Shown here in pieces: positions 12,863 to 48,445 of a stretch of 64,000 bases of DNA; the stretch's first letter is position 1; each line of letters opens with the position of its first letter. The notes below the pieces were generated by a model. The model had not been told where the DNA came from. It saw only the letters and a list, made by a program, of their open reading frames with translations, and did not search any database. The translations under genes and the position numbers were made by a program. Origin of the DNA: Dysidea avara (lineage: Eukaryota; Porifera; Demospongiae; Dictyoceratida; Dysideidae); contig NC_089274.1 of assembly GCF_963678975.1 (NCBI RefSeq), forward strand, positions 48,452,075 through 48,516,074, given 5' to 3'.

Positions 12863-15800
12863 ATGAGATTACTACTGTTTCTAATCTGCAGTTTCCGCTT
12901 CTTGCTACTGTTTGGTGAGTACACTAGCCTGAGGTAGATATTAGTTAATTTAAATACAGAATCATAAGTGTGTGTGTGTGTGTGTGTGAGCAAGATTATA
13001 TAAGGTGACTTAAGATAATGCACAAATATGTAGCCATGTCCTTATTTGATGTTAACTGGGAAAGCATCTCACCCAGTGGCTGTATCATCAATGGGTTACC
13101 TGTGTGAGATTCATGTTTGAGGCTTTGCAGGGTGCCCGCACCTTCACCAGTGAGACATGGTACAGCCGTCTCACCCCAGGAGGATTTTCTACGCTGACTG
13201 TTAACACCTGAGTAGTACACAGGTGGCCTGTGTAGTGTTTCACTAGGAAGACATGATCAACTACACAGGTATAGGTTGTGCTTTACCTTTCCTTTAGGCA
13301 CATACTCCTTGGTTGTGATGAAACTATTGGAGAGTTGACTTCAGACATTAGTGCTGGTAATAAGCAAGTTCAGAACAACCAAACCTACATCATTCCCAAA
13401 TACAATATCATGTCACACGGGTGTTCTGGAATTGTATATGCCTGGTCATACACCATCTGCCATACAAATAGTTCAAACAAAGACAACTGGATAGAACCTG
13501 GAATTTGGAGAGAAATTGAAGATGGTGTCTTTGAACTAGTTCAGAGTAACAGACTTCCATTTCATCTTAGCAGTGATGACAATGACAACAATGATGACGA
13601 TGAAATCAAATGTGACTCTTTCTATATAGAGACAGAAGAACAGTTCACAGCTCCCACTGGATCTGTTGTAGGACTACATGTTCCATACAACAGTGACGAA
13701 ACAATGGTATATCTTATATATGAAAACAATATGGAATATAACACTTACAATTTGTCTGGTAATCATAACCATATCAATATCAGTGACAATAAAGTAGATC
13801 AGCAGGATCATCCCATATCCCTCAGAGTATATATAGGTTAGTATTACATCATGTAGAATAGAGCTAATAACTTGTATGATTACAGATTATGATGAGTGCG
13901 CTACTGAAAATGGGGGTTGTGGTAGAGATACCTGTACTAATACACTTGGTAGTTTTGTATGTACTTGTAAAGATGGTACTATACTACCTGAAGGACAAAC
14001 TAACTGTGGTAAGTATGTATTAGTAAAAACACTCTTCAAGAAATAGCTTATAACATGTGTGGTTGAAGCTGCTTTCATAAATACAAGTATCTACATGAAC
14101 ATATTAAGTTTATGTATATCATAGCAATTTCTTTTTCCATTTCCAAACCAAGGACCTTCTCATTCTTCACCACAACCACCTACAGAACAACCATCCCCAA
14201 CATCTGCAATGTCTGGCAAAAATAAATCAAACAGTGGAACAAAATATTATTTCTTAGCAGCAGTTGGTGGAACTGTTGTGATTTTTACACTGCTTGTATT
14301 AGTGATGATATTTGTTATACTGAGGAAGATGAACGTCTCACATGGGAATGAAAGTACGTAGCTACATTTGAAAGATTGTGTTATATTGGCCTCTCATTTA
14401 GTAGTGTACAATGATGTACTTCCAGTACCAGTTGTTCCCAGAACTACAGAAAATGCTGTGAAGAGAGACAATCACGTTAGCAAATCCAAGAATAAATGAT
14501 GGCATTAGACTAATGTGTACAATACAGGGTATTTTGGTGAGTGATGATTATGAGACACTGGATACTATACAGAGTTACATTAGTGACACTAACTGTGATG
14601 GTTCTACAAACAATACAGATGGTTATAGCTGTGTCCATTGTGTTGATATCTATGATCTCCCTAATGGTCACACGTCTAGTGCATTTGCTAATCAGTTCAC
14701 CACTCAACCAGTGGTCGGTAGTGTTACCACAATACGCAGTTCAATGATTGATACACCAACTGGTGGACAATGTGGTAGTCTGTATGAAACTCCAGTGAGA
14801 AGATCACATACAATATTGTATGAGGATCCTGGAAGTGAGAGAGATAAGATCTATGCTTGTTTAGAGGACAAGAAGATCCAAACTGTTAATCCAAGAAATG
14901 TTATGTAAGATATTAGCTGTGTACTTACTGCAGTGCAATAGTGTAATATAATACTGCAGGCGATTTCACCATATTGGATCTGGTGAATTTGGAGTAGTCC
15001 ATTTGGACACATGGACTGATGGTTCTGCTGATCCTATACAAGTAGCAGTGAAGACACTCAATTCAAAATGTTCAGAGTCAGACAGGGTGAAGTTTCTGAG
15101 GGAGGCAGCCATTATGGGTCAGTTTCAACACAACAATGTAGTACAGTTACATGGAGTAGTGACTGAAGAGGAGAACATGATGATTATACTGGAGTATGTG
15201 CTCAAAGGAAATCTTCACGAATTTTTAATTGAATTAAAGTAAGTGACATTTAAGTTTGCTTCATTGGTAAAGGCTAACCTCTTTAGGAGACAACAAGCAA
15301 ATGTTAACATATCAGAACATGATCTACTCAGCTACTGCAGACAAATATCATCAGGACTGAACTACCTTGCTAACAAACATTTTGTACACAGAGACCTGGC
15401 TGCTAGGAATATACTAGTATCAAGTGATGATGTGTGTAAGGTGAATAATAGACAGTAACAGTATGAGCATGATACAATATCACCTTCATTTCAGATTTAT
15501 TTTTGCTTTGGTTGCTGTTTACTCTGTCATTTACTATCTTTTCTTGCTTCACAGATTGCTGACTTTGGAATGGCACGTGATGTAACTGATCAAAGCTATT
15601 ATGAATCATCAGATGCTAAACTGCCAGTTAAATGGACTGCTCCTGAGGTACTTGTATAAGTGGATCAATTATGTTGTGAAGCTAACACTTTACTTAACAG
15701 GCAATCCTCTACAAGAAGTACTCAACACAAAGTGATGTGTGGAGTTTTGGATGTGTAATATATGAAATATGGAGTTTGGGTCACAAGCCATTTGAGACCG

Positions 15801-16201
15801 TTAAAGTTGCAGAGGTATACAAACATGTCACTACCTAATATGGCTGTATGTACACATTCTAGTACATAGAGAAGATCACTACTGGATACAGACTCCCACC
15901 ACCTCCTGGTTGTCCCAGAGCTATATATCAACTGATGATACAGTGTTGGTTAGCTGATAAACAAGCTAGAGGAATGGTATACTATTGGTGAATGTTTATT
16001 TGTAGGCATCCTGAAGATAATCATCGTCCACATAGTGATTCAATATTGAGGACACTTCAGAAATCTGATAGGACTCTACTATTACGCCCACCAGTAGAAA
16101 GTGATGGATCATTTGACGATGAGTTAGTGACTGTGTTAGGAGCTCCCCTTGATACCAACGAATCCCTCTATTCTGACCTGCAATTTTTGTATACGTCTTA
16201 G
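12863..16201 (+). CDS. Receptor tyrosine kinase A (ectodomain-EGF-TM-TK)
   Basis: Proposed exons: 12863-12933, 13298-13836, 13886-14008, 14153-14353, 14402-14475, 14528-14904, 14960-15238, 15287-15440, 15555-15647, 15701-15814, 15863-15948, 16006-16201. Domains in order: hydrophobic signal peptide ([11 protein letters not shown]), a 180-residue Cys-poor ectodomain, one EGF-like module ([10 protein letters not shown]... [10 protein letters not shown]), a Pro/Ser stalk, a transmembrane helix ([17 protein letters not shown] onward), a juxtamembrane segment with YETL, IYDLP, LYETP and LYEDPG, then a tyrosine kinase. Kinase motifs: [27 protein letters not shown], an activation loop with YY, KWTAPE, SDVWSFG, and a tail ending [10 protein letters not shown]. 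All catalytic residues are present, so it should be active at the plasma membrane; the ligand is unknown. The first exon uses the donor at 12934 because the nearer GTGAGT at 12915 would break the frame. Confidence 0.85.
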
Positions 16202-47200: not shown

Positions 47201-48445
47201 AAATTGGCAAGTTTGTAATTGCCAAAATTGGCAAGTTTTGTAATTACCAAGATTGGCAAGTTTTGTAGTTACCAAAATTGGCAAAATTGTGGAATGACTA
47301 AAAATAAAATCGGTATATTGGCAAGTCATCGGATTATCAAAATTGGCAACTTTAGGAATTTCCAAAAAGCAATTTCGCCAAAGTTGGCACAATCTTTGCT
47401 TGCCAAAAATTGAAGAATTGTGCTACCAATACTATTTTTACCAAATTTTGATACTAAAACCCACAATCAATTCTTTACACCTGGAATTATATAAAGAGAG
47501 TACGTAAAATTCCAAACTTGGGAACTTTCAGCTACTGCTTATAAGTTCCAATGTTGGTAACTTTGTGAAGCTACCACAATGTGTACAGGAATAGCCAAAT
47601 TTGGAATTTCTGAGAAATAACCAATTTTGGCAATTTCTGGAATTGTCAAAACTGGCAATTATACACATTCCAGAAGTTTCCAAAAGTGGCAACTTTCGGG
47701 CATGTGCATTATTGCCAAAAATACTTCCATTACATACCTCGATGCTCTTACTGATCACAAGCCATCTATATCATGTGTAATATTACATATGAATTTTGTA
47801 TGCATGTAAATCTCTTTCTAGTACATAGAGAAGATCACTACTGGATACAGACTCCCACCACCTCCTGGTTGTCCCAGAGCTATATATGAACTGATGATAC
47901 AGTGTTGGTAAGTACCATTATAGCAGATTATTTTTTTAGGGTAGTGAGTGGATTGCCACTATTAGGGGGAAATTTCTCTTATCTTTTACGTGTTTATGTT
48001 ACTTAAACAATGCCATTGTGATCAAGATTCAAATTTTGAGGGCAGAAGTTTTCATGCTATGAAATCACAAAATTTCCCCCTCAAAGAAACCTTAGTATAT
48101 AAAACAAACACTTATTGTTGGGCTGGTAGATATCAGGATATAATAATACATGTATTGCTGTATAACTCAGTTCTACATGTACACATATGACTATACTGGA
48201 CCTGTATCAAATTATAGTGCATAGCGTATAATACAGGCTTAATCATGGCAGTCTATACTGTATATTTTACATGCAGGCATCCTAAACCACAACATCGCCC
48301 TTTGCCTGTGTCACTGCTAAGAATTCTACAGAAATCTGACAGAGTTTTACTGCAGCAAACAGAGCAAACATTAGAACTTGGAGCAATTTCAAACAGCACT
48401 GAATGTGATTACTCTGACCTGCAGTTCATGTACATACAACAATAA
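41276..48445 (+). CDS. Receptor tyrosine kinase D, divergent, no EGF module
   Basis: Proposed exons: 41276-41800, 42968-43207, 43674-43735, 43823-44133, 44333-44617, 44664-44820, 44875-44964, 45019-45132, 47822-47907, 48277-48445. The signal-peptide exon is unresolved: an ATG frame at 41037-41077 (MNKNVLDIVFCAAM) is close but its phase does not fit. The ectodomain has [10 protein letters not shown] and [15 protein letters not shown]. It joins directly, in phase, to the transmembrane exon ([17 protein letters not shown]), so there is no EGF module. The donor after 41800 is GCAAGT, a GC-AG intron. The juxtamembrane part has DYEQP and LYEDPG. The kinase keeps [27 protein letters not shown] and SDVWSFG, but the activation loop ([12 protein letters not shown]) has no tyrosine and the APE motif reads PPE. 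The tail ends [12 protein letters not shown]. Confidence 0.8.
42182..42257. repeat. 15-16-bp tandem repeat, about five copies
   Basis: Units of CCCTAGTGGGATAGT in an intron of gene D. Confidence 0.9.
42455..42925. mobile_element. CGGATC-family element ending 42 bp before an exon
   Basis: Ends CAATGGTGGATCCAAG and complement CAGGGGCGAATCCAGG; 5-bp duplication CATGG at 42450-42454 and 42926-42930. The right end lies 42 bp upstream of the transmembrane exon of gene D (starting 42968), so the insertion abuts the branch-point region. Confidence 0.75.
43253..43335. repeat. (TG)n microsatellite in gene D intron
   Basis: TG run with two TATG interruptions. A second simple repeat, (TGCG)n, lies at about 44234-44283 in the next intron but one. 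Confidence 0.95.
45180..47740. repeat. large fold-back with degenerate AATTTTGGCAA satellite
   Basis: The left part (45180-45680) is built of CCAATTTTGGTAATTTT-like units; the right part (about 46940-47740) carries the complementary TTGCCAAAATTGGCAAG units. Unique landmarks also pair: ACAAGATGGCTGCGTTATTT near 45640 with its complement near 47040, and CTTGTGGGTTTTAGTATC with its complement near 47455. The whole lies in the 2.7-kb intron of gene D between 45133 and 47821, with a hAT element and other debris between the arms. Confidence 0.7.
46452..46816. mobile_element. hAT-type non-autonomous element, copy 2
   Basis: Nearly identical to 19195-19558, with CAGGGCCGCCCA ends and its own 8-bp duplication GTTTCAAG (46444-46451 and 46817-46824). 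The G run is shorter and the T tract longer than in copy 1. It lies in the large intron of gene D. Confidence 0.92.

Follow-up and report, generated by a model that had tools for sequence, protein, structure and literature searches.

Diverging outer domains and a homogenised kinase exon in an expanded family of predicted receptor tyrosine kinases of the sponge Dysidea avara

Introduction

How neighbouring receptor genes can carry outer domains that differ strongly and, at the same time, share one part of the kinase almost unchanged is the question raised by a stretch of 64,000 nucleotides of the sponge Dysidea avara (assembly GCF_963678975.1, contig NC_089274.1, positions 48,452,075 to 48,516,074). 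This whole stretch, hereafter the window, lies at 48.452-48.516 Mb on the contig that we call C3. Splice-site models place four receptor tyrosine kinase (RTK) genes in it: A (12863-16201, plus strand), B (25054-20089, minus strand), C (32720-36981, plus strand), and D (41047-48445, plus strand). In A, B, and C, the outer-domain exon is followed by an EGF-like exon, a transmembrane exon, a juxtamembrane part (exons JM1 and JM2), and then six kinase exons (K1-K6). Judged from their sequences, A-D probably belong to an expanded RTK family of single-pass receptors, with at least 33 close K1 copies in the genome, an Eph-like kinase, and an outer domain of no recognised family, whose outer parts diverge and whose N-lobe exon (K1) is converted between copies.

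Results and Discussion

Size of the Receptor Family

The original prediction, made on the window, proposed to search the ectodomain and the kinase separately. We have done so in this genome (550.8 Mb, 108 contigs), and all the copy counts that we give are lower bounds. The K1 protein query detected at least 33 close matches (72-96% identity), i.e., 26 on C3 at 46.98-48.66 Mb, five on C14, and two on C4, and an outer ring of 64 further K1 matches (43-65% identity, E 3e-14 or better) on C3 and other contigs. At the DNA level, the K1 tract was found in 33 places, 32 of them over its full 225 nt and one over 190, and 15 match the majority K1 sequence at 96-99%. Using the outer domain of gene C as query, we detected at least 36 copies, of which C3 carries 25 (47.07-48.66 Mb), C14 eight, and C4 three. 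Over the domain, 32 of the 36 have an open frame and four are disrupted. Both searches led largely to the same regions, since all the outer-domain copies but one (C4, 28.66 Mb) fall in regions with close K1 copies, three of those on C3 having no adjoining K1. The local cluster of four that had been predicted is rejected by these counts: A-D are part of a larger array, most of it within 1.7 Mb of C3.

A dead fifth copy sits between C and D (38175-40243, plus strand). It consists of an outer-domain remnant (38175-38322), 69% identical to gene D, and a K1 remnant (39679-39812, plus a 27-nt piece at 40217-40243) that has kept 87-90% identity with live copies or with the majority sequence. A rearranged relic was also observed in locus L013 (C3, 47.115 Mb), where positions 289-494 hold two K1 pieces in opposite orientation.

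The family would have grown by tandem and dispersed duplication accompanied by gene death, as read from the sequences. The four window genes are not alike by chance, given that they correspond exon by exon over 11-12 exons and that their four K1-holding open reading frames (ORFs) match the Pfam kinase family with E values of 2e-26 to 7e-25.

Homogenization of the K1 Exon

The outer-domain exons of A-D share 61-69% DNA identity (27-46% protein identity in the five pairs compared), as against 88-95% DNA identity for K1, which bears out the strong difference of the extracellular exons announced by the original prediction. At silent sites, the divergence (pS) among A-D is 0.10-0.20 in K1 and 0.00-0.11 in K5, and the outer domains are saturated (0.61-0.73). 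Gene D differs silently from A-C in K4 (pS 0.56) and in K6 (0.79-0.87), exons for which the family medians are 0.58 and 0.65, and its identity to gene A is 98.8% in K5, 75% in K4, and 62% in K6. Silent differences among A-D were counted in 6 of 99 codons for K1 and K5 together vs. 25 of 50 for K4 and K6 (p 1.5e-9, the exons having been grouped after the data were seen), and the comparison of K1 with K2-K4 and K6 is also significant (p 1.7e-5).

The contrast between exons is found as well among the 15 most homogenised genes, whose median pS is 0.14 in K1 (0.04-0.27), 0.63 in K2 (0.00-0.94), 0.53 in K3, and 0.78 in JM2. The loci L026 and L012, which are 1.47 Mb apart, have a pS of 0.04 in K1 vs. 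0.81 in K2. In a profile of 32 of the 33 copies (all but L034), identity in the K1 core is 0.80-0.94 over the first 120 nt and 0.70-0.86 near the end, and beyond the core it falls to about 0.55 at the exon ends and to 0.27-0.34 in the introns. Thus, the signature of regional conversion, i.e., silent near-identity in one segment and near saturation in the adjacent ones, was found for K1. The homogenised kinase of the original prediction holds for K1 and K5 in A-D and essentially for K1 in the family as a whole, and it fails for K4 and K6 of gene D and for K2 in the 15 most homogenised genes; that the whole kinase is homogenised was rejected, K2 and K3 being divergent at silent sites too.

The distances between copies point in the same direction. 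Those of K1 are unrelated to those of K2 (r -0.04, p 0.62, 33 genes) and to those of the outer domain (r -0.23, p 0.96); for the latter comparison, an outer domain was matched to a K1 in 22 genes, over a distance of about 31 kb in two of these and of 17-22 kb in three. The distances of K2 are correlated with those of K4 (r 0.52), and the outer-domain distances follow K2 (r 0.37) and K3 (r 0.45). The other exons were recovered by BLAST in part of the 33 loci (K3 in 22, K4 in 18, K5 in 17, K6 in 12, and JM2 in 28, the JM2 matches being often short). Altogether, K1 appears homogenised without its neighbouring exons, a pattern that agrees with exon-limited gene conversion. Such conversion, acting mostly on the N-lobe exon, may hold about 225 bp of kinase DNA near-identical across genes up to 1.5 Mb apart.

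Identity of the Outer Domain and Selection Acting on It

The outer domain is about 150 residues long and contains invariant cysteines and tryptophans. A Pfam scan of the four outer domains of the window gave no match above the cut-off, a scan of 19 aligned members gave a best E value of 0.087, and the PDB search with profiles of four and 19 members yielded nothing significant (best E 1.1 and 0.21, respectively). By sequence, the outer domain is without a recognised family in Pfam or PDB, in agreement with the private ectodomain of the original prediction. A scan of viral contigs produced eight pattern matches, none of which encodes a relative. In the window itself, the ORF at 60212-60775 (plus strand) has an outer-domain-like layout (C.G.V, IWR, GD.IG.Y) and its alignment to the profile of the family is collinear (pairwise E 0.001, probability 21.6); kinship is only a lead.

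The comparison of nonsynonymous and synonymous rates (dN/dS) that had been proposed for ectodomain and kinase was made among family pairs at pS 0.1-0.2, which are not independent of one another: the ratio reaches 0.96 in the outer domain (40 pairs), as against 0.45 in K1 (80 pairs) and 0.38 in K2 (48 pairs). The outer-domain pairs leave aside the four disrupted copies and the partial copy L036, which duplicates the full copy L059. Site models were also applied to the open outer-domain copies. In a subfamily of 18 copies (15 from C3 and three from C4), twice the log-likelihood difference (2dl) between models M1a and M2a is 82.9, with w (the dN/dS of the selected class) of 3.3 at about 16% of the sites. 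The gap-free columns give 81.5, the 15 C3 copies give 58.4, and three segments of 50-52 codons, each with its own tree, give 20.4-25.9; the M8a/M8 comparison gives 73.5. Simulations under M1a, 24 runs each, reached at most 7.5 with one tree, 18.1 with three trees, and 27.6 with six trees. For K2, 2dl is 1.3 (32 of the 33 copies). K1 has a nominal signal (2dl 11.5) that we have discounted, because the recombination nulls, simulated for the outer domain rather than for K1, reach 18-28. According to these models, one subfamily (18 of the 32 open copies) is under strong diversifying selection, above all the recombination-null simulations. The outer domains would have diverged widely and, in this subfamily, a minority of their sites would have changed at more than the neutral rate.

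Alternative Explanations

Several results weigh against the reading of a converted K1 and diversifying outer domains, and they have to be considered together with the alternatives that they favour. Tests for breakpoints were negative: the pairwise homoplasy index (PHI) inside K1 gave p 0.99 and 0.99, and 0.77 for third positions (30 of the 33 cores, all but L029, L033, and L034), PHI inside the outer domain gave p 0.13 and 0.45, and a Sawyer-type run test on the A-D kinases did not reach significance (p 0.09; p 0.14 for the longest run). The evidence for conversion is consequently the contrast between exons and not the finding of breakpoints. In addition, K1 correlates with K3-K5 (r 0.36-0.46) over 33 genes, a correlation not seen within the 15 most homogenised, the outer-domain distances follow K4 with r of only 0.11, and the GC content at third positions is 0.394 in K1 vs. 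0.27 in JM2, 0.28 in the outer domain, and 0.382 in K4 (0.26-0.38 in the other exons). It could then be argued that K1 is alike among copies by nucleotide constraint, e.g., through splicing, RNA or a small-RNA target, with which the confinement of the similarity to the exon core, the introns at background, and the missing breakpoint signal would agree. We consider this very unlikely, since silent differences are numerous in K1 among other close copies (pS up to 0.64). Moreover, constant constraint slows K1 and yet leaves it on the gene tree, and the K1 distances follow neither K2 nor the outer domain, so that exchange between copies is the better reading. The possible mosaic pair formed by L017 and gene D, with three differences in the first 145 positions and 18 in the next 80 (p 1e-6, the split being chosen by eye), also speaks against constraint.

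With regard to selection, the set of 18 copies was chosen after the alignment and the pairwise ratios had been inspected, and the site models are our own implementation, checked only by the null simulations. All 32 open copies together give a 2dl of only 37.7, the nulls having been simulated for the 18 alone. The outer domains of A-D give a 2dl of 0.0 and a one-ratio (M0) w of 0.25, a result of low power because of saturated silent sites and four sequences; ten other copies outside the subfamily give 0.1, and 1.0 when joined with A-D (14 copies). As the signal is high in 18 of the 32 copies and nil in A-D and ten others, diversifying selection is shown for one subfamily and not for A-D, and the diversifying pressure of the original prediction, and with it the reading as candidate recognition receptors, stands for the former only. 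For A-D, the absence of signal and the saturation at silent sites fit ordinary divergence, in which their outer domains would be old and weakly constrained, under no diversifying pressure, and the genes would be growth-factor or matrix receptors radiated within the lineage. We give this explanation somewhat less than an even chance: in the subfamily with the same domain, 2dl is three times the null maximum, and the outer domain evolves at a higher dN/dS than K1 and K2 at comparable silent divergence. A mixture of true receptors with dead or decoy genes, in which some outer-domain exons serve other proteins, appears rather unlikely, even though 4 of the 36 outer-domain exons are disrupted, the dead copy lies between C and D, and on C3, K1 is missing for 3 of 25 outer-domain exons and, for 5 of 27 K1 exons, the next K1 is reached without an outer domain in between. 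For the other 22 of these K1 exons, an outer-domain exon lies upstream in the same orientation, at 31-85 kb in four cases. Finally, the most far-reaching interpretation, that the array is the recognition repertoire of the animal, with dozens of diversifying outer domains set on one kinase core kept uniform by conversion of its ATP-binding exon, is in our opinion doubtful, less probable than the mixture just described.

Gene Models and Exon Plan

The presence of four RTK genes, A and B convergent and B and C divergent, was borne out by the splice-site models, which contain 12 exons in A, 11 in B, 12 in C, and 11 in D. The four genes follow very nearly the one exon plan that had been predicted. 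Phases agree at every common boundary: phase 1 at the end of the outer-domain, EGF, and transmembrane exons, phase 0 at the end of JM1 and of K2-K4, and phase 2 at the end of JM2, K1, and K5. The plan is broken in D, whose model has no EGF exon, and in B, which lacks the intron between the transmembrane and JM1 exons, so that both are fused. The translations of B, C, and D (817, 866, and 689 residues, respectively) have no internal stops, and their predicted products show the RTK layout, i.e., signal peptide, outer domain, single transmembrane helix, and tyrosine kinase in one open frame. Gene A has this layout only with an alternative donor of exon 1, since splicing at the canonical donor (after 12914) shifts the frame of exon 2, and a non-canonical donor after 12933 leaves the whole frame open. 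All the signal peptides and the helix of gene A were judged by eye.

Gene A, on the plus strand, begins with a signal-peptide-like exon (12863-12933, its end at 12933 being in frame), followed by the outer-domain exon (13298-13836, from the splice model and matched by the family profile), a calcium-binding EGF exon (13886-14008; Pfam EGF_CA 1.6e-7, above the cut-off), the transmembrane exon (14153-14353), JM1 (14402-14475), JM2 (14528-14904), K1 (14960-15238, with the homogenised 225-nt tract at 14976-15200), and K2-K6 (15287-15440, 15555-15647, 15701-15814, 15863-15948, and 16006-16201). Gene B, on the minus strand, consists of a signal-peptide-like exon (25000-25054), the outer-domain exon (22970-23482, from the splice model and the family profile), a degenerate EGF-like exon (22798-22920; EGF_CA 9.6e-4, below the cut-off), the fused transmembrane and JM1 exon (22149-22609), JM2 (21724-22091), K1 (21389-21667, tract at 21427-21651), and K2-K6 (21188-21341, 20665-20757, 20499-20612, 20354-20439, and 20089-20296).

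The exons of gene C (plus strand) are the signal-peptide-like one (32720-32774), the outer-domain exon (32977-33624), an EGF-like exon (33680-33805; EGF_CA 2.5e-5, 24.8 bits vs. a cut-off of 27), the transmembrane and juxtamembrane exons (34001-34390, 34448-34530, and 34580-34944), K1 (35003-35281, tract at 35019-35243), and K2-K6 (35330-35483, 35731-35823, 36460-36573, 36631-36716, and 36774-36981). In gene D (plus strand), the signal-peptide-like exon (41047-41077) is followed by the outer-domain exon (41276-41800), which has a GC donor, the transmembrane and juxtamembrane exons (42968-43207, 43674-43735, and 43823-44133), K1 (44333-44617, tract at 44349-44573), and K2-K6 (44664-44820, 44875-44964, 45019-45132, 47822-47907, and 48277-48445). 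The intron between K4 and K5 of gene D (45133-47821) measures 2.7 kb vs. 48-59 bases in A-C.

One EGF module had been taken as a trait of the family. We have found it only in A, B, and C, with that of A alone passing the Pfam cut-off, and no EGF match was detected in 29 other family loci (4.8-10 kb each, some of which stop short of the outer-domain exon), so this trait was rejected. In A, B, and C, the EGF exon has phase 1 at both ends, and thus, its gain or loss leaves the frame intact.

Kinase, Juxtamembrane Segment, and Proposed Mechanism

The catalytic residues are present in the kinases, including the glycine loop, the VAVK lysine, and further motifs, with PPE instead of APE in gene D. 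Among the best 60 of 784 PDB matches, the kinase is closest to one EGFR chain, with two matched stretches, and then to Eph kinases. The tyrosine pair of the activation loop is present in A, B, and C and absent in D, L030, and L035 (3 of the 22 K3 exons seen). The juxtamembrane segments are rich in tyrosines (nine in B, nine in C, and seven in D) and carry YDLP in B and C, YEDP in A, B, and D, and motifs of the YETP type. YDxP motifs are docking sites for Crk-type SH2 domains, and the YEDP motif is known from Ephs.

The mechanism proposed here takes ligand binding, clustering, trans-phosphorylation, and adaptor recruitment from RTKs in general. In it, the outer domain would bind a ligand or a neighbouring cell and the receptors would then cluster. 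The kinase might phosphorylate its own activation-loop tyrosine pair (in A, B, and C) and the juxtamembrane tyrosines, and SH2 adaptors might read the phosphorylated sites of the YDLP, YETP, and YEDP types. The net effect would be that many different inputs are fed into one conserved enzymatic core.

Surroundings of the Genes

Other elements were observed in the window. A dispersed repeat is present in two copies (19222-19561 and 46466-46817) that are 94-100% identical in the matched blocks. The ORF at 3379-3909 (plus strand) encodes a DDE_1 transposase-like product (Pfam 1.3e-6), and a reverse-transcriptase fragment at 51273-51545 (minus strand) falls just under the Pfam cut-off. Adjoining gene A, there is a DEAD/ResIII helicase ORF (12026-12670, minus strand), which may resemble FANCM.

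Significance and Comparison With Known Systems

To our knowledge, which receptors lie behind sponge recognition is an open question, and the array provides a concrete set of candidates for it, with selection concentrated in one subfamily at marked sites. If it were a recognition repertoire, new specificities could arise without a change of signal, and the animal would have in these RTKs a candidate molecular system for the recognition of self and non-self or of microbes. The pattern would represent concerted evolution of one intracellular exon within receptors that otherwise diverge, a useful case for studying how a gene is divided between conversion and diversifying selection.

The closest analogue would be the clustered protocadherins of vertebrates. 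One region of the fugu protocadherins is reported to be homogenised by conversion, their distal outer domains remaining diverse, and diversifying selection on EC2 and EC3 of the mammalian ones is cited in the same paper (PMC1852091). Both systems are tandem arrays of membrane receptors in which conversion evens one coding part at silent sites and the distal outer domains are diverse. In contrast to protocadherins, what is converted here is a kinase exon on the intracellular side, every modelled gene comes with a kinase of its own, and in the Pfam scans, the outer domain matches no cadherin family.

The family recalls the Eph receptors in the PDB matches of its kinase, where Eph chains come after one EGFR chain, and in the YEDP motif of A, B, and D. 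Unlike in Ephs, the outer-domain exons scanned contain no ephrin-binding domain or fibronectin repeat of Pfam, and by count some 40-50 residues lie behind the kinase, too short a stretch for a SAM domain. Lineage expansions of Ephs are described in sponges and cnidarians in a study where 13 sponge Ephs were analysed by their ligand-binding and kinase domains (PMC6485061). A transcriptome survey of Halichondria panicea reports nearly 200 putative cytokine receptors and assigns them to RTKs and TGF-beta receptors (PMC8242945). In the titles and abstract openings that we covered, a scope outside which most subscription journals fall, no array of RTK genes with such a homogenised exon was described, nor the combination of such an exon with diversifying selection in one subfamily. 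The lineage-specific RTK radiations of holozoans (PMC8662651) resemble the Dysidea family in being large and private, with an outer domain of their own and a conventional kinase. Relative to what is described there, the family of A-D would add an exon-limited homogenization and a diversifying selection measured in one of its subfamilies.

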